Assembly (NCBI GenBank): GCA_028673005.1
Contig: CM054116.1
Span: 147,743,173 to 147,807,172, forward strand
Length of the DNA: 64,000 bases
Reading direction: 5' to 3'
DNA from: Tanypteryx hageni
Taxonomy: Eukaryota; Arthropoda; Insecta; Odonata; Petaluridae
Position numbers and translations under genes: made by a program. Positions 5,756 to 60,147 of this stretch are shown here, piece by piece; within the stretch, counting starts at the first letter, position 1, and each line of letters begins with the position of its first letter. The notes below the pieces were generated by a model. That model was not told where the DNA came from. It worked only from the letters and a program-made list of their open reading frames with translations, and ran no database searches.

Positions 5756-5812
<57 letters not shown>
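5753..5812. repeat. TA dinucleotide microsatellite
   Basis: About 30 units of TA separate two oppositely truncated retroelements. Frames reading through it give repeated Tyr-Ile, which has no coding meaning. Confidence 0.95.
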
Positions 5813-5815
<3 letters not shown>

Positions 5816-6755
5816 TCATAGGTAGTCTGTCCGTAGACAGGTTCGTGATTATTCTTGGTTAAACCTGGTTCTCCATATATTCCTATTTTCGGCTGTCCTC
5901 TTCATATCTTGATACCCCTTTCCCTTTCAAATCGTCTATGAGCTGAAACCTTTTCCTACCTCTTTCCCATTTCCCAACTAGTTTTCCTTCTAACAAATCT
6001 TTAATCATACTTTCTCTCCTCAAGTATTGTCCAACCCAGTTAGCCTTCCTCTTTCTGATAGTCTGTATAATCATTCGCTTCTCTAATCCTCTTCGTAGCA
6101 CTTCATCGTTTGTCATCCTATCTGTCCATTTTATCTTCAACATTCTCCTCCAAGTCCACATTTCAAAGCTTTCCAAGTATTTGATGTCATTTTTCCTTAG
6201 CGTCCATGTATCTGCCCCATACAATGCTATACTCCATAAGTAGCATTTTATCAACTTCTTGCGGATATCTTCCCTTATATTCCCTGTAAGTAGTTGTTTC
6301 ATTCTCCTGAAAGCCGCTTTTGCTTTTCCTATTCTAGTTCTGATCTCATCCGTACATTTTGCTTCTCGTGTTATGATGTTTCCAAGGTATTTATATTCTG
6401 AAACTTGTTCTAAAGGCTTTCTCCCAATACTTATGTTCAGATTCTCTTCTTTACCTGATATTCGAATGACCTTGGATTTTTCAGTATTTATTTCCATACA
6501 GTATTTTCTACCTGTTATCACTAGTCTATTTATCATTTTCTGTAGGTCCTCTTCCTTTCTTGCTAGAAGTACTTGATCATCTGCGTATTTACTGTTCTTA
6601 TAATCCTTCCTCCAATTTTGAAATCCCCTGTGCCTTCTAAAGGTTCTTGCATTAGACTTTCTCCATATATAATGAATAGGGTTGGCGATAGGCAGCAGCC
6701 TTGTCTTACTCCTCTACCGATATTTATTCCGCAGGTGTCCACATTCTCTCTCTCT
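5813..6755 (-). pseudogene. RTE-like LINE, 5'-truncated (copy 1)
   Basis: The minus strand encodes the second half of an endonuclease-reverse transcriptase of the RTE-like type common in insects: ENVDTCGINI, RQGCCLSPTLF (RT motif before the catalytic Asp pair), then, after a frame break, the C-terminal region with KYLGNIITREAKCTDEI and IKWTDRMTNDEVL. A one-base deletion near 6595 shifts the frame exactly at the codons for YADD. The 3' end is the same ATGATGA-type tail seen in copies 2 and 3. Truncation lies at the CT/TA repeat near 6745. It is about as close to copy 2 as members of one subfamily would be. Confidence 0.8.
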
Positions 6756-36013: not shown

Positions 36014-36325
36014 TACGATATATAATGATGATAACATATAGGAGGATACTAATGTCCAACCCAAACTACAAGAGCTGGAGAGCTAAAAGTTTCAGTTTTT
36101 GTAGATATGATGGAAAAACCTCCAGATAAAATGAGACAACTCACCTAAGTGACATGAGTTCGACTCCAGAAATTCCGAAAGTTGCGTTTTTTTCCCATAA
36201 GAAAAGCATTGCGCCATTTTTGTAAATTAATTTTGGGCACTTTCCTGTAAGCTAGAAAAATGAAATTTTCAGAGTTGCTAGATGGCCACAATATCTGTTA
36301 GGAATTATTGCTACTTTTGCTGATG

Positions 36326-38464: not shown

Positions 38465-38968
38465 GTTTAGCTACTACAGAGCAAGTTAGAAAGCTGAAAT
38501 TTCAAAGTTATTTAGATTTCTGTCTATGTAAACGAATAAACATTTCAATGTATCCATGAAATTTTTATTGCAGCCGTTAAAAATTATTTAAAATTAAACA
38601 ATTAGATAAATGTTATTTCACTTCTAAATTTGTTACAAATTTATAATTAGGCAGAAATGTGTGGCATTATTAACCAAATGTGGATAAAGTATATTATTCC
38701 TAAAATTGCAAAAATTAGCGATTGTTTTACTCCATTATTGTTCCATAAGGAAAAAACGAAAATCGGTCCTGAGGATAAATCTTTTGAATTAAAGAAATAT
38801 TTACCATAATGAAATATATCCCAGAAAAATTAATGTATTTTCAAGGTGATCTGATATGCTTGCAGAATGCAAGCACCTTCTACTAGTAGTATATAATGAT
38901 GTTATATGTTACTCCTCCTCTGTAAGGATCTATATATAATGATGTTATATATTGGAGGATACTAATGT

Positions 38969-39036
38969 GAACTGATGGTGTAGTGGTTAGCGTGTCGGCT
39001 TTCTATTGCAAAGTTCGAGGGTTCAAACCCCTCGAA
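38969..39036 (+). other. tRNA-like head of the RTE element
   Basis: GGTGTAGTGGTTAGCG is a good pol III A box/D-arm; 39017-39033 is a perfect five-pair T arm (GAGGG, loop TTCAAAC, CCCTC), which is the B box; between them GCTTT and AAAGT can pair around a seven-base loop with anticodon position ATT. Nucleotide 1 of this tRNA numbering falls on the first base after the target duplication. The acceptor stem does not pair, so it is a tRNA-derived promoter-like segment and not a working tRNA gene. Confidence 0.55.
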
Positions 39037-39236
39037 TGGAGGTTTTATAGAAAAAAAATATCATCAGTGCTTGGCAGTAGGCAGCAGTACTGTCAGTATG
39101 GTATAAAGCCGAAAACAAATGATGTTGGTTGGATCTATATCCAATACAGCTGTAGGCATGATCAGGACGATTTGAACGGCTACAGTGCTGCGATGTGTAA
39201 ATCAAGAGGGAAATTACCACATTCCAATCCCTTATA

Positions 39237-42216
39237 ATGATTATATGGGTGGACAATATGAGTTCTCTCGAGGTAAAACAATTCGGAGGTAAAATAGTCC
39301 CCCAATCGGATCTCCAGGTAGGAACTGCCTTGAGGAAAACATTTGTCGAAAGTAATTTACGAATAGGGACTTGGAACGTAAGAACTATGAGAAAGGCAGG
39401 AAAGCTAGAGAACTTGAAAGAAGAAATGAGAAGAAATAGAGTTGACATTATAGGACTAAGCAAAACTAGATGGGAGGGCGAAGGACAGTTCGATTCAGAA
39501 GAATTCACGGTAGTTTATTATGGAGGAAATAGTGGGGAAAGTGGAGTAGCTCTGGTACTTAGGAAAGATATGATGAAAAGCGTGACAAAAATAATAGCAA
39601 CGAACGATAGACTGATCGCAATAAAGCTAAAAGCAGTCCCAGTGGACATACTGATAATCCAGGTATATATGCCAATGTCAGCTCATGAAGATGAAGAAAT
39701 CGAGGAGATTTATGAGCAAATTAATGAAATTTACAAAGAAGATGGAAGAGGAAAGGTAAACTGCATAATTATGGGAGATTGGAACAGCATAGTTGGAGAA
39801 GGACAGGAAGAAAATGTTGTCGGGCAATACGGACTTGGGAAGAGAAATCGAGGAGGGGAGAAACTCGTAGAATTCTGCATCAATAATGATACATAATTAT
39901 ACATGGTTCAAAAACCATAAACCAAGGTTATACACATGGAAAAGCCCAGGAGATAGAATGAGATGCCAAATAGATTACACCCTTGTAAAACAAAGATTCA
40001 GGAACAGCATAAAGAATGCCAAGGCATTTCAGGGAGGGGACATTGATTCAGATCACAGCCTTCTAATACTTGACGTGAGTACAAAGTTCAAACAAATAAG
40101 AAAAATGAGAAGAGAAAGACAGACCTGAGACCTAGAAAAACTGAAAGAAAGGCAGGATGTAGTCAGCATGAAGTTGGAAGATAACCTAAGAATGTTGGAA
40201 AACAAACCGAAGACCATTGATATAGAATGGGATGAAATTAAAACCAGTATCAAGGATACTTTGGATAAAGAGATTGGAAAAGAAAACCATGGATCACGAA
40301 GGAAATGCTGGAGAAAATGAGTGAGAGGCAAAAATAGAAAAACGTTAACAGTGAAGATGGTAAAACCAACTATAGGCGTATAAACAATGAGTTGCGAAGG
40401 GTAACAGATAAAGCTAGAGAAAATTGGATAAAAGGAAAATGTGATGAAATAGAACAAATGGAGAAGTTAGGACGGTACGATATGATGTACGCTATAGCAC
40501 TCGAGTTAAAAGATAAGAAATCTAATGGAATTCATGGTATGGGAATTATGAATATGGATGGGAAGATAGTCTCAGAAACAAAGGATGTAGCACAGGTATG
40601 GGAAGAATACATTAAGGAAATATACAGCAAACAGGCAGGAGTGGCAAAAATAGAACTGGAACAGGAGGAAAACATTGAAGAAGACAACTTAGGACCAAGT
40701 ATTATGGAGAGCGAAGTAGAAAAAGCGATAGTGGAACTAAAGAAGGGGAAAGCCACGGGCAGCGATGGAATACCGGCTGAGATACTTAAAGTCATAGGAT
40801 CAGAAGGACTAAAAGCGATCACGAAATTAATTAATAAGATTTACGACATGGGAGAGTGGCCTCGGGATTTCCAAGAAGTAACAATGATCCCTCTTAAGAA
40901 GAAGCCAAAGGCAATGCAGTGTAAAGATTACAGAACGATAAGCCTTCTATCACTCACTTTAAAGATCATCACGAGGAATCTTAATAACAGACTGGAGAAA
41001 AAGACAGAAGAAATGCTAGGGGAAGATCAATTCGGTTTCAGAAAAGGACAAGGAACTAGAGATGCTATAGGAGTAGTTAGAATTATATCAGAAAGGGCAA
41101 TAGAGTACAGTCAAGATTTCTGCGCATGTTTTGTAGACTGGCAGAAGGCCTTTGATAGAGTAAATTGGATAAAGTTGATGAAGATATTAAAGAATATAGG
41201 TGTAGACTGGAAAGACAGGAGATTGATTAGGAATCTATATGTGAATCAAATTGTAAAGGTCAGGTTTGAGAATGTGGACACCTGCGGAATAAATATCAGT
41301 AGAGGAGTAAGACAAGGCTGCTGCCTATCACCAACCCTATTCAATATATATGGAGAAAGTCTAATGCAAGAAGCTTTAGAAGGCACAGGAGATTTCAAAA
41401 TTGGAGGAAGGCTTATGAATATATATGAATATATGAATGAATATGAATATATATGAATATATATGAACAGTAAAATATGCAGATGATCAAGTACTTCTAG
41501 CAAGAAAGGAAGAGGAACTCCAGAAAAAGATAAATAGATTAGTAATAACAGGTAGAAAATACTGTATGGAAATAAATACTGAAAAATCCAAGGTCATTCG
41601 AATATCAGGTAAAGAAGAGAATCTGAACATAAGTATTGGGAGAAAGCCTTTAGAACAAGTTTCAGAATATAAATACCTTGGAAACATCATAACACGAGAA
41701 GCAAAATGTACGGATGAGATCAGAACTAGAATAGGAAAAGCAAAAGCGGCTTTCAGGAGAAAAAAACAACTACTTACAAGGAATATAAGGGAAGATATTC
41801 GCATGAAGTTGATAAAATTCTATGTATGGAGTATAGCATTGTATGGGGCAGAAACATGGATGCTAAGGAAAAATGACATAAAATACTTGGAAAGCTTTGA
41901 AATGTGGACTTGGAGGAGAATGTTGAAGATAAAATGGACAGATAGGATGAAAAACGATGAAGTTCTACAAAGAATAGGAGAGAAGCGAATGATTATACAG
42001 ACTATCAGAAAGAGGAAGGCTAACTGGGTTGGACATTATCTGAGGAGAGAGAGTATGATTAAAGATGTGTTAGAAGGAAAACTAGACGGGAAAAGGGAAA
42101 GAGGTAGGAAAAGGTTTCAACTGATAGACGATTTGAAAGGGAAAGAGAGTTATCAAGAAATGAAGAGGACAGTGGAAAATAGTAGTATATGGAGAACCAG
42201 GTTTACCCATGAATAA
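39237..42216 (+). pseudogene. RTE-like endonuclease-reverse transcriptase, broken
   Basis: Endonuclease from 39358: RIGTWNVRTM, GLSKTRWEG, MGDWNSIVGEG and, after a +1 frame break near 39890, IDSDHSLLI. A TGA at 40126-40128 and further breaks precede the RT (about 40400-41500): AVELKKGKATGSDGIP-like linker, YRTISLLS, FVDWQKAFDRVNW, VRQGCCLSPTLFNIY, and YADD at 41476-41487. The C-terminal region (41566-42216) has GKAKAAFRRKKQLL and RKRKANWVGHYLRRE. A short TATGAA-rich insertion sits between GGR and YADD. The catalytic residues themselves are unchanged. Copies 1 and 3 are relatives. Confidence 0.85.
41416..41465. repeat. TATGAA-type microsatellite insertion in the RT gene
   Basis: About 45 bases of overlapping ATATGAATA units occur between the GGR codons and VKYADD; copy 1 lacks them. 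They introduce a stop and shift the frame just before the catalytic site. Confidence 0.8.
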
Positions 42217-42608
42217 TCCCGGACCTGTTTACGGACAGACTACCTATGATGATGACTCATGTCCAGCCCAAACTACAAGAGATAGAGACCTGTAATTTTC
42301 AGAATTTGTAGAAGTCTTCGAGAAACCTCAGGAATAAATGGGATCTCTTATTTAAGTGACATGGGTTCGACACCAGAAGTTCCAAAATTTGCGTTTTCTT
42401 GCAAAAGAAAAGCATTGCGCCATTTTTTAAAATTAATTTCTGGCACTTGCCCACAAGCTTGAAAAATGAAATTTTCAGTGTTCTTAGATTGCCATCATAT
42501 CTATTAGGAATTATTATTACTAATGCTTACAGTGTCCTGAGTTTTACTCTAAATGCCCCGAAATATCTCCAATAAGTTAGCATGGGAAAGTTAATCCAGT
42601 GTGTAGAC

Positions 42609-48566: not shown

Positions 48567-48738
48567 TGAGAATGAAAGGAAAATCGAAATAATAAGATAT
48601 GATTCATAAAGAAATAACTGAAATTTACTTGAAATATTTGAGCAAATTATAAGTTGGTGGAATAAAGTGATCCGAAGATCCTATGCAGACAGGCATAAGC
48701 TGTAAAGTTGGGAATAATTTTGAAACGAGAAAAAAGTC

Positions 48739-48802
48739 TGCTATGACCGGGAATCGAACCCGGGTCTTCCACTTGCCGGGCGGATATTGAACTATCGTAG
48801 CA
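48739..48802 (-). other. tRNA-like pseudogene (Gly-type promoter boxes)
   Basis: On the minus strand TGCTACG and CATAGCA pair at six of seven acceptor positions, the T arm CCGGG-TTCGATT-CCCGG is perfect, and TCCGC/GTGGA form an anticodon stem around CCGGCAA (position 33 is C, anticodon position GGC). The D loop has lost about six bases that are present in the partner copy at 48862-48893 (AGTTCAATGGTAGAAT). It is a tRNA-derived sequence, perhaps a SINE head, and not a functional tRNA. Confidence 0.5.
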
Positions 48803-48893
48803 GATCATTTTTCTCATTTCTGAACGCGGATGTTTTCTTGGTTGGGACAGAAATAAAAATGATCTGCTACAATAGTTCAATGGTAGAATATCC
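48782..48893. repeat. Inverted pair of tRNA 5' halves
   Basis: 48782-48812 and 48855-48893 are inverted copies of the tRNA-like 5' half (ATGATCTGCTACAATAGTTC type) separated by about 42 bases. The right copy leads straight into Penelope coding sequence. Confidence 0.7.
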
Positions 48894-48894
48894 C

Positions 48895-50142
48895 AAGAAT
48901 ATCTTCCCAAGTGTACCTCTGGAAGAAACATCCCAAATTTTAAAATCATTGTTACTAAAACAAAATTTTTCTGATGAAATTGTCCTCGAATATTTACAAC
49001 TTACTAATTTATGCATGTCACAGAACGTTTTTTTATTCAAAAATGAAATTTACAAACAAACACAAGGAAATTCTATGGGAAACCCCTTATCTCCTTTTTT
49101 AGCCAACATTTTCATGTCCTCTTTTGAAAACGATTGCAAAAAAATTTCATTACTTTCCAGATATATGGTTGAGGTACGTGGATGACATATTCACAATCTT
49201 TGATTTAAAGAAACAAAATGTAGATGAATTTGTTAATCAGTTAAACAACATATATCCTTCAATCAAGTTCTCTTATGAACTTCAAGAAAACAACACCTTG
49301 CCATTTTTGGACTTGCTTATCATAAATAATAGACAACACATTGAGTTTGACATTTTTAGAAAACCTACACATACTGATAACTTTATTCCTAACAACTCCT
49401 TTCACCCTATGAACCAAAAAATAGCTGTGTTTCAATTTTTAACACACAGATTATGTAACATCCCCCTCAGTAAAATCAGATATGCAAAGGAACTTAAACA
49501 CATAAAACAAATTGCCGCTAAACTTGGATATGATAATAATTTAATTAATAAATTAGTGAGAAAACATAACTTTAATAAAACCTTGTCCAATGCCACTTCC
49601 CTCAAATTAGACAACAAAAAAGAGGACAAATATGTAAAATTGCCTTATTTTCCACCATTAAACTGAGGCTTGAACAAAATTTTTAACATAAGAATTATAC
49701 CATAACATATACAAATCCTTATAATTTGAAAAATTTACTGGGCAGTACAAAAGACAGAACAGAATTTTTGAACAAGTCCGGTATTTATAAAATACAATGC
49801 TCACACTGCGACCAAAAGTACATAGGACAAACAAGAAGGAAACTAATAACACGCTTCAAGGAACACATGGCTCACTATAAATATAATCGTTTTGAAAAAT
49901 CAAGCGTTGCCAACCACATCTATGAAACAGGTCATAGTATACACGTAAACGATTTAACACTGATAACTTCAGCCAATAACTCACTAAACTCGTTAGAAAA
50001 CCTTCACATTTACAAAAACCGCGATACACTTATGAACACGGACACAGATTTCAACAAGACCCTATACAAATTGACAGATTTAAACGACACACACGCCGAA
50101 AAATCTTTCCGCGCTTCACTTGTTTCTCGGTCGTCTTCTTAA
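48895..50142 (+). pseudogene. Penelope-like RT and GIY-YIG endonuclease, broken
   Basis: RT from 48895: FLFKNEIYKQTQGNSMGNPL is the motif before the catalytic loop; a one-base slip in the A-run at 49137-49144 shifts the frame; then WLRYVDDIFTIF carries the catalytic YVDD (49175-49186), LPFLDLLI follows, and the thumb ends at the stop 49664-49666. About 20 codons are missing or shifted before the next open part (49726-50142): SGIYKIQCSHCDQKYIGQT with R and H downstream is the GIY-YIG nuclease. The RT fingers are absent. The linker lacks the CCHH-type Cys cluster of copy 1. Confidence 0.82.
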
Positions 50143-56249: not shown

Positions 56250-57022
56250 CAAATGGGGTAAAAACAACCACTCAAAATAAGAATTTTGAAATTTTTATTT
56301 TTTTGGTTGGTTGTACCAAATGCTATAATCGTGCAGAATTTCAGTATCCTATTCCTCTTCGATTGGTCTACACACTGGAGTAACTTTTTCCCATGCTAAC
56401 TTATGGGAGCTATTCCGGGGAATCTGGAGTCGAACCCAGGACACTGTAAGCAAAAGTAATAATAATTCCTAATAGATATTACATGTATCTAGCAACACTG
56501 AACATTCATTTTTCTAGCCTATGGGCAAGTGCTCGAAATAGATTTACAAAACTGGCGCAATACTTTTCTTATGGGGGAAAAAGCAAATAAAATGAGACTT
56601 CTCACCTAAGTGACATGAGTTGGACTCCAGAAATTCCGAAAGTTGCGTTTTTTCCCATAAGAAAAGCATTGCGCCATTTTAGTAAACTAATTTTGGGCAC
56701 TTGCCCGTAAGCTAGAAAAATGAAATTTTCAGTGTTGCTAGATGGCCGCAATATCTATTAGGAATTATTGTTACTTTGGCTTACGGTGTCCTGGGTTCGA
56801 CTCCAGATACCCCGGAATATCTCCCATAAGTTAGCATGGGATAAAGTTATCCCAGTGTGTAAACCAACCTAATTAGTAGGTTTCTCCATCATACCTAAAA
56901 AAAAACTGAAACTTTCATCTCTCTAGCTCTTGTAGTTTGGGCTGAACATTAGTATCCTCCTATATATATGTTATATCCTCCTCTGTAGGGAACGTCTATA
57001 TATAATGATAACATATAACACA
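56250..57022 (-). mobile_element. Helitron family A with 220-bp internal fold-back
   Basis: The minus-strand copy ends near the family start at about 56950-57000 (CATTAGTATCCTCCTATATA on the plus strand). About 56365-56587 and 56646-56867 are inverted copies of each other (both include the T-arm-like TGGAGTCGAACCCAGG or its complement and CATAAGTTAGCATGGG), around a spacer of about 60 bases. The 3' stem-loop end is absent. Confidence 0.65.
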
Positions 57023-58429
57023 CTAGTAGAAGGTGCTTGCATAGTGCAAGCATTTCATCTCACCTTGAAAAAAAATAATTTTTCAGAGAGATATTTGATC
57101 CTGGAAATATTTCTTTAATTCAAAAGATTTCACCTCGGGACCGATTTTCGCTTTTTCCTTATGAAACAATAATGGCGTAAAACAATCACTAATTTTGCAA
57201 TTTTAGGAATATTATACTTTTCCCACATTGGGTTAATAATGCCACACATTTCTGCCAAATTTTAAATTTGTAGCACATTTAAAAGTGAAATAATATTTAT
57301 CTAATAGTTTAAAATTAAATACTTTTTCACGGACGCAATAAAAATTTCATGGATACGTTGAAATGTTTATTCGTTCATATAGACTAAACTCTAAATAACT
57401 TAAAAATTTCAGCTCTCTAACTCGTCACGTAGTATCTAAACATTTACCTATTTTTTTAAACTTGAAGAATTTTTAACTGCCAAACAAATTAAAATATCAA
57501 AATTTGTATAATCCACATTTCTTTTTTTTACAAACTCTATCTTTAAAAAAATTTCAGCTCCGTAGCACATTCGGAAAAACAAAAACCTTGAAAATTTGTT
57601 TAATCAATTCCGAATTTTTAGCGGCCGCATTGTTGCACTTTTTCCTGATTCTCGTTTTTTCTAGTCGGTTTTGCACAACATCCTATCTAAGAAAAAATTA
57701 CGAATCTACAGCTCATTCTGCAAACATATCATCTCACCTTGAAAAAACATTTATTTTTCAGACAGATATTTCACCATTACAAATATACTTTTAATTCTAA
57801 ATATTTCACCTTCGCAGGTTTCTTTTTTCCCTTATGTAAAAATAATAGATTAAAACAGGCCCCAAACTTCGCAATTTTAAGAATTTTATACTTTCTTCAT
57901 TATGGGGTACTAATGCTACACATTTCTGCCAAATTTTAAAGTTGTAGTACATCTAGAAGTGAATTAATATTTTCTAATTGTTTAAATTTTAAACATTTTT
58001 AACGGCTGCCGCAATATATTTATAAAGAGATTCAAATGTTTATTTGTGCAAATGCACTACTCGGTAAATAAATTGAAAATTTCAGCTTCCTAGCTCATCC
58101 CGTAGTACCTAAACAGTTATCCATTTGCCTAAACAATTTTTAACGACAACACAAATTAAAATATCGTAATTTCTATAATCCCTACTTCGTTTTTTACAAA
58201 TTCTACCTCTAAAAAAATTTCAGCTCCGTAGCAGATTTGGAAATACACAAACCTTGAAAATTTGTTTAAATAATTACGAATTTTAAACGGTCGAATTCTT
58301 GCAGTTTTTCAAAATTTTCGTTTTTTTCATTCGGTTTTGCACAAAATCCTACCAAGAAAAAATTTCGAATCTCCAGCTCATCTGAAAGTGCCTAAACATT
58401 AGTATCCTCCTATATGTTATCATTATATA
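57023..58429 (-). mobile_element. Helitron family A, two copies fused
   Basis: CTAG at 57023-57026 with T outside and stem-loop 57034-57052. At about 57715 the body of one copy jumps to CATATCATCTCACCTTG, the sequence just inside the 3' end of a second copy, whose own stem-loop is missing. The second continues to the family start at about 58428. Confidence 0.7.
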
Positions 58430-59080
58430 CTAGTAGTTGGTGCTTGCATTCTGCAAGCATATAATCTCAACATAAAAAAACATTCATTTTTCATATTTCA
58501 TCATTACAAATATTTTTTTAATTCTAAATATTTCACCCCCAGAGCGATTTTCGTTTTTTTCCTTATGTAAAAATAATAGATTAAAACAATCCGAAAACTT
58601 TGCAATTTTAAGAATTTTATACTTTCTCCATTATGGGGTACTAATGCTACACATTTTTGCCAAATTTTGAAGTTGTAACTTTTCCCATCCTAACTTATGG
58701 GAGATATTCCGGGATCTCTGAAGTCGAACCCAAGACACTGTGAGCAAAAGTGAGAATAATTCCAAATAGATATTGCGGCCATCTAGTAACACTGAAAATT
58801 TCATTTTTCTAGCTTACCGGCAGGTGCCCAAAATTAATTTACAAAAATGGCGAAATACTTTTCTTATGGGAAAAAACGCAACTTTCGGAATTTCTGGAGT
58901 CGAACTCATGTCACCTAGGTAAGAAGTCTCATTTTATCTGTAGGTTTCTCCATCATATCTACAAAAACTTAAACTTTCAGCTCTCTAGCTCTTGTAGTTT
59001 GGGCTGGACATTAGTATCCTCCTGTTATATATATGTTATCATTATATATCGACGTTTCTTACAGAGGAGGATATAACATA
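58430..59080 (-). mobile_element. Helitron family A, internally deleted
   Basis: CTAG at 58430-58433, stem-loop 58441-58459. Near 58676 the body jumps to the T-arm-like part (TGAAGTCGAACCCAAGACAC), so the middle is deleted. Two inverted T-arm motifs follow and the family start is at about 59020-59050. Confidence 0.7.
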
Positions 59081-60147
59081 CTAGTAGTTGGTGCTTGCAT
59101 ACTGCAAGCATTTCATCTCACCTTGAATAAACATTCATTTTTCTGACAGACATTTCATCATTACAAATCGTCTTTTAATTCTAAAGATTTCACCTCCGCA
59201 GCGATTTTCGTTTTTCCCACATGTAAAAATAATAGTTTAAAACAATCCCCAAATGTAACAATTTTAAAAAATTTACACTATATTCATTATGGGGTACTAA
59301 TGCTACACATTTTAGCCATATTTTAAAGTTGTAGCACATCTAGAAATAAAATAATATTTTTCTAATTGTTTAAATTTAAATAATTTTTAACGGCCGCCGC
59401 AATTCATATATGGGAAACTTGAAATGTTTATTTGTGCAAATTCACTACTCTGTAAATAATTTGAAAATTTCAGCTTCCTAGCTCATCCCGTAGTACCTAA
59501 ACAGTTATCTATTTGTTTAAACTTTAAGAATTTTTAACTGCCAAACAAATTAAAATATCGAAACTTCTATTATCCGTTTCGTTTTTTTACAAATCCTACT
59601 TCTAAAAAATATTTCAGCTCCGTAGCACATTCGGAAATGCCTAAACCTAAATCTCCAGCTCATCTGGAAGTGCCTAAACATTAGTATCCTCCTGTTATAT
59701 GTATGTTATATCCTCCTCTGTAAGGAACGTCTATATATAATGATATTGAAATGTTTATTCGTTTACATAGACTAACTTCTAAATAATGTAAAAGTTTTAG
59801 CTCCCTAACTTGCGGCGTAGTGTCTAAGCATCTACCTATTTGTTTAAAATTTTAGAATTTTTAACTGCCAAACAAAAATATCAACATTTCTATAATCCCT
59901 ATGTTTTTTTTACAAATCCTACGTCTAAAAAAATTTCAGCTCCGTAGCATATTCGGAAATACATAAACCTTGAATATTTGTTTAAACAATTGCCAAATTT
60001 TTAGCGGCCCATTGTTGCACTTTTTCGAGGTTTTCGTTTTTTCTAGTCGGTTTTGCACAAAATCCTACCTAAGAAAAAAATTTCGATTCTCCAGCTCATC
60101 TGGAAGTGCCTAAACATTAGTATCCTCCTGTATGTTATCATTATATA
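59081..60147 (-). mobile_element. Helitron family A, complete-looking copy plus partial copy
   Basis: CTAG at 59081-59084, stem-loop 59092-59110, family start at about 59690-59745. A second body without a 3' end follows to about 60147. Both contain CAGCTCCGTAGCA and CCTAAACATTAGTATCCTCC. Confidence 0.7.

Follow-up and report, generated by a model that had tools for sequence, protein, structure and literature searches.

A tRNA-like head at the first base of an RTE-type LINE family in the odonate Tanypteryx hageni

Introduction

SINEs carry tRNA heads on LINE tails, and the route by which the two parts are joined has been deduced from finished SINEs. Their internal pol III promoter fixes the start at nt 1 and travels along in each copy, and their heads often have weak acceptor and anticodon stems. 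With regard to RTE LINEs, a passage of one report describes internally deleted families that gain heads, mostly from tRNA and some from 5S rRNA, and thereby become SINEs (PMC7245038, citing Kojima 2018). In Helicoverpa armigera, the tRNA-derived SINE HaSE1 and the RTE element HaRTE1 have a common tail; the copy HaRTE1.1 is 1,645 bp long and, in the excerpt concerned, is given no tRNA head, unlike the LINE described here (PMC3272025). Junctions between small RNAs and LINEs are on record as well: the relevant extracts report three U6 copies joined with RTEX-2 in Anolis through a switch of template from RTE-like to small RNA (PMC4476161), a catalogue of U6/L1, tRNA/L1, and Alu/L1 chimeras in which the tRNA parts are mostly antisense halves and of which the U6/L1 chimeras usually propagate no further (PMC13174262), and small-RNA/LINE chimeras in Magnaporthe (PMC2104539).

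The family analyzed here is represented in a 64,000-nt stretch of Tanypteryx hageni DNA, which we refer to as the window. It resembles RTE-clade LINEs in having an APE endonuclease and a reverse transcriptase, one frame of ~1,000 codons, short UTRs, a length of 3.2-3.3 kb, and an ATGATG tail, and it differs from them in its 5' end, which is tRNA-like and contains an A box and a B box. With the tRNA-headed RTE SINEs, as outlined in the cited passage of PMC7245038, it shares the order of tRNA head, RTE 5' region, and RTE tail (compare copy L057, below); in the route outlined there, however, deletion comes first and the head second, whereas here the full coding element bears the head. Like the small-RNA/LINE chimeric retrocopies, to the extent that the extracts describe them (PMC13174262, PMC4476161, PMC2104539), it has a small RNA at the LINE 5' end within one target duplication, but those chimeras are separate events and here a family inherits one junction. 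It is best described as an RTE LINE with a SINE-type head, a combination that is real, has precise boundaries, is a family trait, and is partly still coding. Among the matches listed in the open-licence literature, we found no LINE family that is autonomous and passes on a tRNA head; an unremarked entry may exist in Repbase or in the subscription journals.

Results

Target site and coding state of the window copy

The insertion, its target sites, its open frames, and a second copy in the window are located as follows.

38969..42254, plus strand: RTE-type LINE insertion, 3286 nt, reading frame broken (empty-site comparison; Pfam endonuclease and RVT_1)
38961..38968, no strand: left target-site duplication ACTAATGT, present once in three empty paralogous sites
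42255..42262, no strand: right target-site duplication ACTCATGT, 7/8 identical to the left copy
36018..36294, plus strand: empty paralogous target site, uninterrupted, without head or LINE
56878..57107, minus strand: empty paralogous target site, uninterrupted, no head
58777..59161, minus strand: empty paralogous target site, uninterrupted, no head
39201..39896, plus strand: APE-type endonuclease open frame (Pfam PF03372, E 8.8e-10)
40338..41456, plus strand: reverse transcriptase open frame, first part (Pfam PF00078, E 2e-25)
41467..42216, plus strand: open frame with the reverse transcriptase end and the C-terminal part, downstream of the repeat at 41407-41472 (PF00078)
42240..42254, plus strand: 3' tail CTACCTATGATGATG, common to family copies
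5812..6748, minus strand: second copy of the same RTE, 89.7% identical, 5' end missing, in a TA repeat

At the insertion point, the three paralogues in the window read through as TACTAATGTCC or TACTAATGTTC with no interruption. Since all three of these empty target-repeat paralogues (3/3) are without the head, we conclude that the head and the LINE were inserted as a single unit. The first-pass annotation had the LINE begin exactly with a tRNA-like sequence lying inside the target duplication, and on both points it was correct: the coordinates are right to the base, with element nt 1 equal to tRNA nt 1, and the head lies between ACTAATGT and ACTCATGT. The host of the insertion is an unnamed dispersed repeat with the motif GGAGGATACTAATGTCCAGCCC, which occupies 38800-38968 and 42255-42500 and recurs at ~10 further places in the window.

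The match of PF00078 to the frame at 41467..42216 has an E-value of 1.5e-6 and a score of 28.5 bits, slightly below the cut-off of 29.6. The repeat at 41407-41472, in the reverse transcriptase region, consists of ATGAATAT-like units that are absent from the second copy (6748-5812). The description of the element as a coding LINE is only half right for the window copy, whose frame is split; one open frame from stop to stop is present in 2 of 16 two-ended copies elsewhere (L053, 1008 codons; L060, 1006 codons).

A degenerate tRNA-like head with A and B boxes

The 5' end of the element contains these features.

38969..39046, plus strand: tRNA-like head, 78 nt including the terminator-like TTTT (the head recurs in 37 of 39 other copies)
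38976..38986, plus strand: A box TGGTGTAGTGG, from tRNA nt 8 (box patterns)
39020..39030, plus strand: B box GGTTCAAACCC within a perfect T arm (box patterns, fold)
39043..39046 (element nt 75 on), plus strand: TTTT, pol III terminator-like, one of two sense-strand T4 runs
39051..39058, plus strand: A-tract at the head/RTE junction, its length differing among copies

Seven bases precede the A box, which places element nt 1 at the position of tRNA nt 1. Using the patterns TRGYNNARYGG (A) and GGTTCRANYCC (B) at tRNA spacing, we found that the head holds the sole mismatch-free A/B pair on both strands of the 64 kb, bearing out the A box and the perfect T arm (B box) of the first-pass annotation; Y was admitted post hoc as the fourth letter of the A pattern, and against TRGCNNAGYGG the head has one mismatch. 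Chance origin of the pair was rejected, as 12 Mb of simulated first-order Markov sequence gave no pair with up to one mismatch in A and none in B.

The designation "tRNA-like" is sustained by the boxes and by a model alignment, and it does not extend to a tRNA gene. ARAGORN reported no tRNA. The Rfam tRNA model gave 16.0 bits for the window copy (a partial match) and, for four family members, 17.4 bits in three and 17.1 in the fourth, against a curated cut-off of 29; in these four the model aligned end to end (1-71 of 71) from element nt 1, with non-standard pairs at 3/7 positions of the acceptor stem and 3/5 of the anticodon stem. A functional tRNA gene was therefore rejected, and the low score, the non-standard stem pairs, and the silence of ARAGORN indicate a degenerate tRNA-like head of the kind found in SINEs. 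When compared to SINE2 elements, the family shares the tRNA-related head and its two boxes at the 5' end, albeit with a model score below the curated cut-off, and at 3.2 kb with a coding frame it is neither short nor non-autonomous. The translated head had no match in the protein search, and a copy of the 3' tail, sought within the 5'UTR as a SINE remnant, gave nothing longer than 14 nt.

The fold of 38969-39044, which is no cloverleaf, is stabler than 200 shuffles (z -3.2), and most of this stability comes from the T arm together with another hairpin. HDV-like ribozymes have been reported in other LINEs. A function of the head as RNA would put it in the place of such ribozymes, the tRNA-like fold being the site where RNase P or Z cleaves a longer transcript and thereby fixes the 5' end at nt 1. 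The start of most copies at tRNA nt 1 and the stable T arm are consistent with this reading, but the non-standard pairs in the acceptor and anticodon stems speak against it, and we regard it as distinctly improbable.

The head is a family trait

We searched the 1.68-Gb genome and scored the 40 best candidates per search, so that old or diverged head-less copies may go unseen; the candidate totals given below are unverified copies. With a query of the head and the 5'UTR (element nt 1 = query 20; best 40 of 845 candidates), 39 places other than the window start at query 10-22. Twenty of these 39 were fetched at 5 kb each, and the head was at the start in 20/20. Fifteen of the 20 extend through the body to the tail (among them L046 and L047, with an extra insert); of the remainder, L057 is without the middle and four lose similarity earlier.

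A head-free query (39060-39330; best 40 of 1251 candidates, 39 of them outside the window) revealed the head upstream in 37/39 places; a general lack of the head in other copies, which would have spoken against the first-pass annotation, was not seen. This count comes from a recount with looser patterns, the stricter patterns having flagged 18/20 and 13/19, and six copies were read by eye as head-bearing (L093, L110, L111, L112, L113, and L126). L116 and L127 have no head and start at the head/RTE junction, one within the A-tract, and represent either ordinary truncation or a head-less 5' form. In the 37 head-bearing copies, the A and B boxes are free of mismatches in 36, and the first bases are GCACTG-like in 30 and depart from this pattern in seven (L093, L096, L111, L112, L122, L126, and L129; L126 solely through a change further in). 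In L096 and L111, GTGTAG units are duplicated where the A box starts, as if by slippage. The head is joined to the 5'UTR by TTTTAT and an A-tract of variable length.

These counts bear on the reading of the window copy as a one-off chimera, in which reverse transcription during this insertion switched from RTE RNA to a pol III RNA of 78 nt. Such chimeras are described in the extracts of PMC13174262 and PMC4476161, and the single target duplication, the TTTT at the junction, and tRNA nt 1 at the insertion boundary are what such a switch would leave. The same 5'UTR is, however, preceded by the head in 37/39 other places and in 20/20 longer copies. A unique junction is refuted by one common to many places, leaving this reading with a very small probability; it survives as a founding event.

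A query of the head alone (best 40 of 360 candidates, 30 loci fetched including the window's own) found RTE sequence behind the head in 30/30 loci and no independent SINE with this head among them. Fifty-two of 58 loci found with the head in the query (L012-L040 and L062-L090) remain RTE to the end of the fetched 1.5 kb; the 58 loci comprise 54 distinct sequences, of which 54 have the TTTT, 54 the B box, and 53 the A box. That the head is a separate SINE, lying upstream by accident or as an insertion target, would fit with the presence in the genome of a SINE with an identical 17-nt A-box region (see below), but RTE follows the head at all 30 loci and the head is missing from the three empty sites, which refute this reading for the window copy, and we assign it a very small probability.

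State of the family and an internally deleted copy

Thirteen copies that have neither a large gap nor a large insert reach the tail and are 3,174-3,262 nt long (L048 is counted among them despite a gap of ~70 nt). Compared in pairs over ungapped columns, 14 copies, with that of the window among them, are 93.0-99.0% identical; nine copies are 97.7-99.0% identical to one another, and the window copy is 93.0-94.8% identical to all others. This spread suggests to us that both older and younger rounds of copying transmitted the head. The 16 two-ended copies end in CTATGATGATG or near variants. Clear target duplications were found in L041 (13 nt, one mismatch), L055 (10 nt), and L057 (9 nt), while 7 of the 16 two-ended copies have none or just 4-5 nt and 6 of the 16 lie in AT repeats, where duplication is not judgeable.

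Judged by resemblance, the element at 38969-42254 probably belongs to the RTE clade. It has an APE-type endonuclease followed by a reverse transcriptase, a single long frame in L053 and L060, short UTRs, a short tandem repeat at the 3' end, and a target duplication (clear in the window copy, L041, L055, and L057).

L057 is an internally deleted RTE copy of 1123 bp that consists of the head with the first 373 nt and of the last 749 nt, with 2.2 kb missing, and it is the single internally deleted copy ending in the tail among the 20. Ten RTE copies with like scores (L017-L026) are spaced over 1.2 Mb at C3:22.4-23.7 Mb; L046 and L047, the two checked of this cluster, have a common extra insert, perhaps reflecting segmental duplication.

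TTTT after the head and the choice of polymerase

The sense strand of the 3286-nt element has two runs of at least four T, one after the head and the other at 41129. The probability of a T run within 12 nt is ~0.4% from the density in the body and is estimated at ~6% once the greater share of T in the 5' region is allowed for. The TTTT is kept in 36/37 head-bearing copies found with the head-free query (it is lost in L111), in 54/54 distinct copies retrieved by a query that included the head, and in 16/16 two-ended copies. Depletion of T4 runs in the reading frame would be expected if pol III were making the whole RNA; as a sign of read-through it was not significant in either open copy (L053: 0 seen, 2.2 expected, P 0.07; L060: 2 seen, 2.9 expected, P 0.41).

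The TTTT behind the head would favor a 78-nt product, and a longer transcript would call either for a start by pol II or for pol III that terminates inefficiently. The terminator-like run at nt 75 in 36/37 copies weakens the proposal that the LINE has an internal pol III promoter, and we do not claim that pol III would make full-length LINE RNA. A pol II start near the head, leaky pol III termination, RNA processing where the tRNA-like fold lies, and the absence of any function are each possible. A bolder account holds that an autonomous LINE lineage adopted a pol III promoter of the tRNA type as its own 5' end and is transcribed from it, with the polymerase passing a weak T4 terminator; a promoter placed on a coding LINE, followed by a single internal deletion, would make SINEs head-first, the reverse of the published order. 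We consider this account unlikely.

The head could also be a passive hitch-hiker without function, inherited because 5'-complete copies are copied from nt 1. LINE 5' ends are copied regardless of function, the TTTT would block pol III, and the first nucleotides vary, with GTGTAG duplicated in L096 and L111, all in agreement with such a view. The mismatch-free A and B boxes in 36/37 copies argue against it, albeit as a weak sign of constraint, because the copies are closely related. We hold passive inheritance to be a tenable but less probable reading.

A neighboring SINE, a sister family, and other elements

Directly downstream of the full-length RTE copy in L060, at L060:3774-4150, lies a SINE with a tRNA head and an RTE-like tail with GAATGAATGA. 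Its head matches that of the LINE exactly over 17 nt around the A box, and behind the head follow ~30 nt of RTE 5'UTR and then the RTE-like tail, which is the composition given for RTE-derived SINEs in the passage of PMC7245038. This SINE bears on the origin of the head, which might have been borrowed when a headed, internally deleted RTE-SINE swapped its 5' part with an autonomous RTE. The shared 17 nt over the A box, the RTE 5'UTR segment, and the RTE-like tail favor such a swap, as do the weak acceptor and anticodon stems of the head; against it, the two heads align locally over no more than those 17 nt, and the 30 head-only loci gave no SINE with this head. A swap of this kind is compatible with what was observed of the head at the insertion and in the family, and we rate it as a possible though doubtful origin. 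The suggestion that the element is an intermediate showing how a SINE partner arises gains partial support from L057 and from the SINE next to L060, but no SINE with this very head was found among the 30 head-only loci.

A sister RTE family is present in the window from 60747 onward (best 40 of 1485 candidates; five upstream pieces fetched), and of the five pieces only L132 extends far into the 5'UTR. Comparison with L132 showed that a stretch around CCGGAGGTAAAATRGTCCCCCA is common to the 5'UTR of both families. No A/B pair at tRNA spacing was found in L132, even with two mismatches per box, in this one copy whose own 5' end is unconfirmed.

Elsewhere in the window, the Rfam tRNA model scores 43.4 bits at 48739-48801 (minus strand); this match has a short D arm, its 5' part is repeated inverted nearby, and it adjoins an open frame at 48724-50142 that is presumably Penelope-like. 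A related stretch in L133 makes this match look like a dispersed repeat and not like a lone tRNA gene. A viral contig collection gave no RTE match and no exact match to three head patterns. Ten RTE-like loci were found in a genome contig collection (bacterial records), of which only L001 is close (48% at the protein level); its contig starts ~130 nt before the endonuclease.

Discussion

Head and LINE form one insertion unit whose first base is tRNA nt 1; 37/39 copies picked with the head-free query carry the head, and so do copies with open frames. We consider it probable that a tRNA-derived head of the pol III type (~75 nt plus TTTT) was captured at the 5' end of an autonomous RTE-type LINE lineage, which has transmitted it as its own first base ever since. 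The first-pass annotation had proposed capture by template switching; capture of the head is supported, and template switching appears plausible as its means. The capture was probably a single event, either a template jump or the joining of RNA onto a tRNA-derived RNA, and the A-tract between the head and the LINE may be the scar of this capture, perhaps derived from the A-rich tail of the tRNA-derived RNA. The head would then have passed through older and younger subfamilies and, by analogy with SINEs, may have been retained since it helps to set the transcription start at nt 1. Such a role in fixing the 5' start is likely but unproved. An internal deletion in one step, as represented by L057 (one copy), could turn the headed LINE into a SINE-like element.

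The presence of headed coding LINEs, close copies, open frames, and L057 in one genome makes the order of SINE birth testable, and the family raises the question of which polymerase serves a LINE with a tRNA-type promoter.
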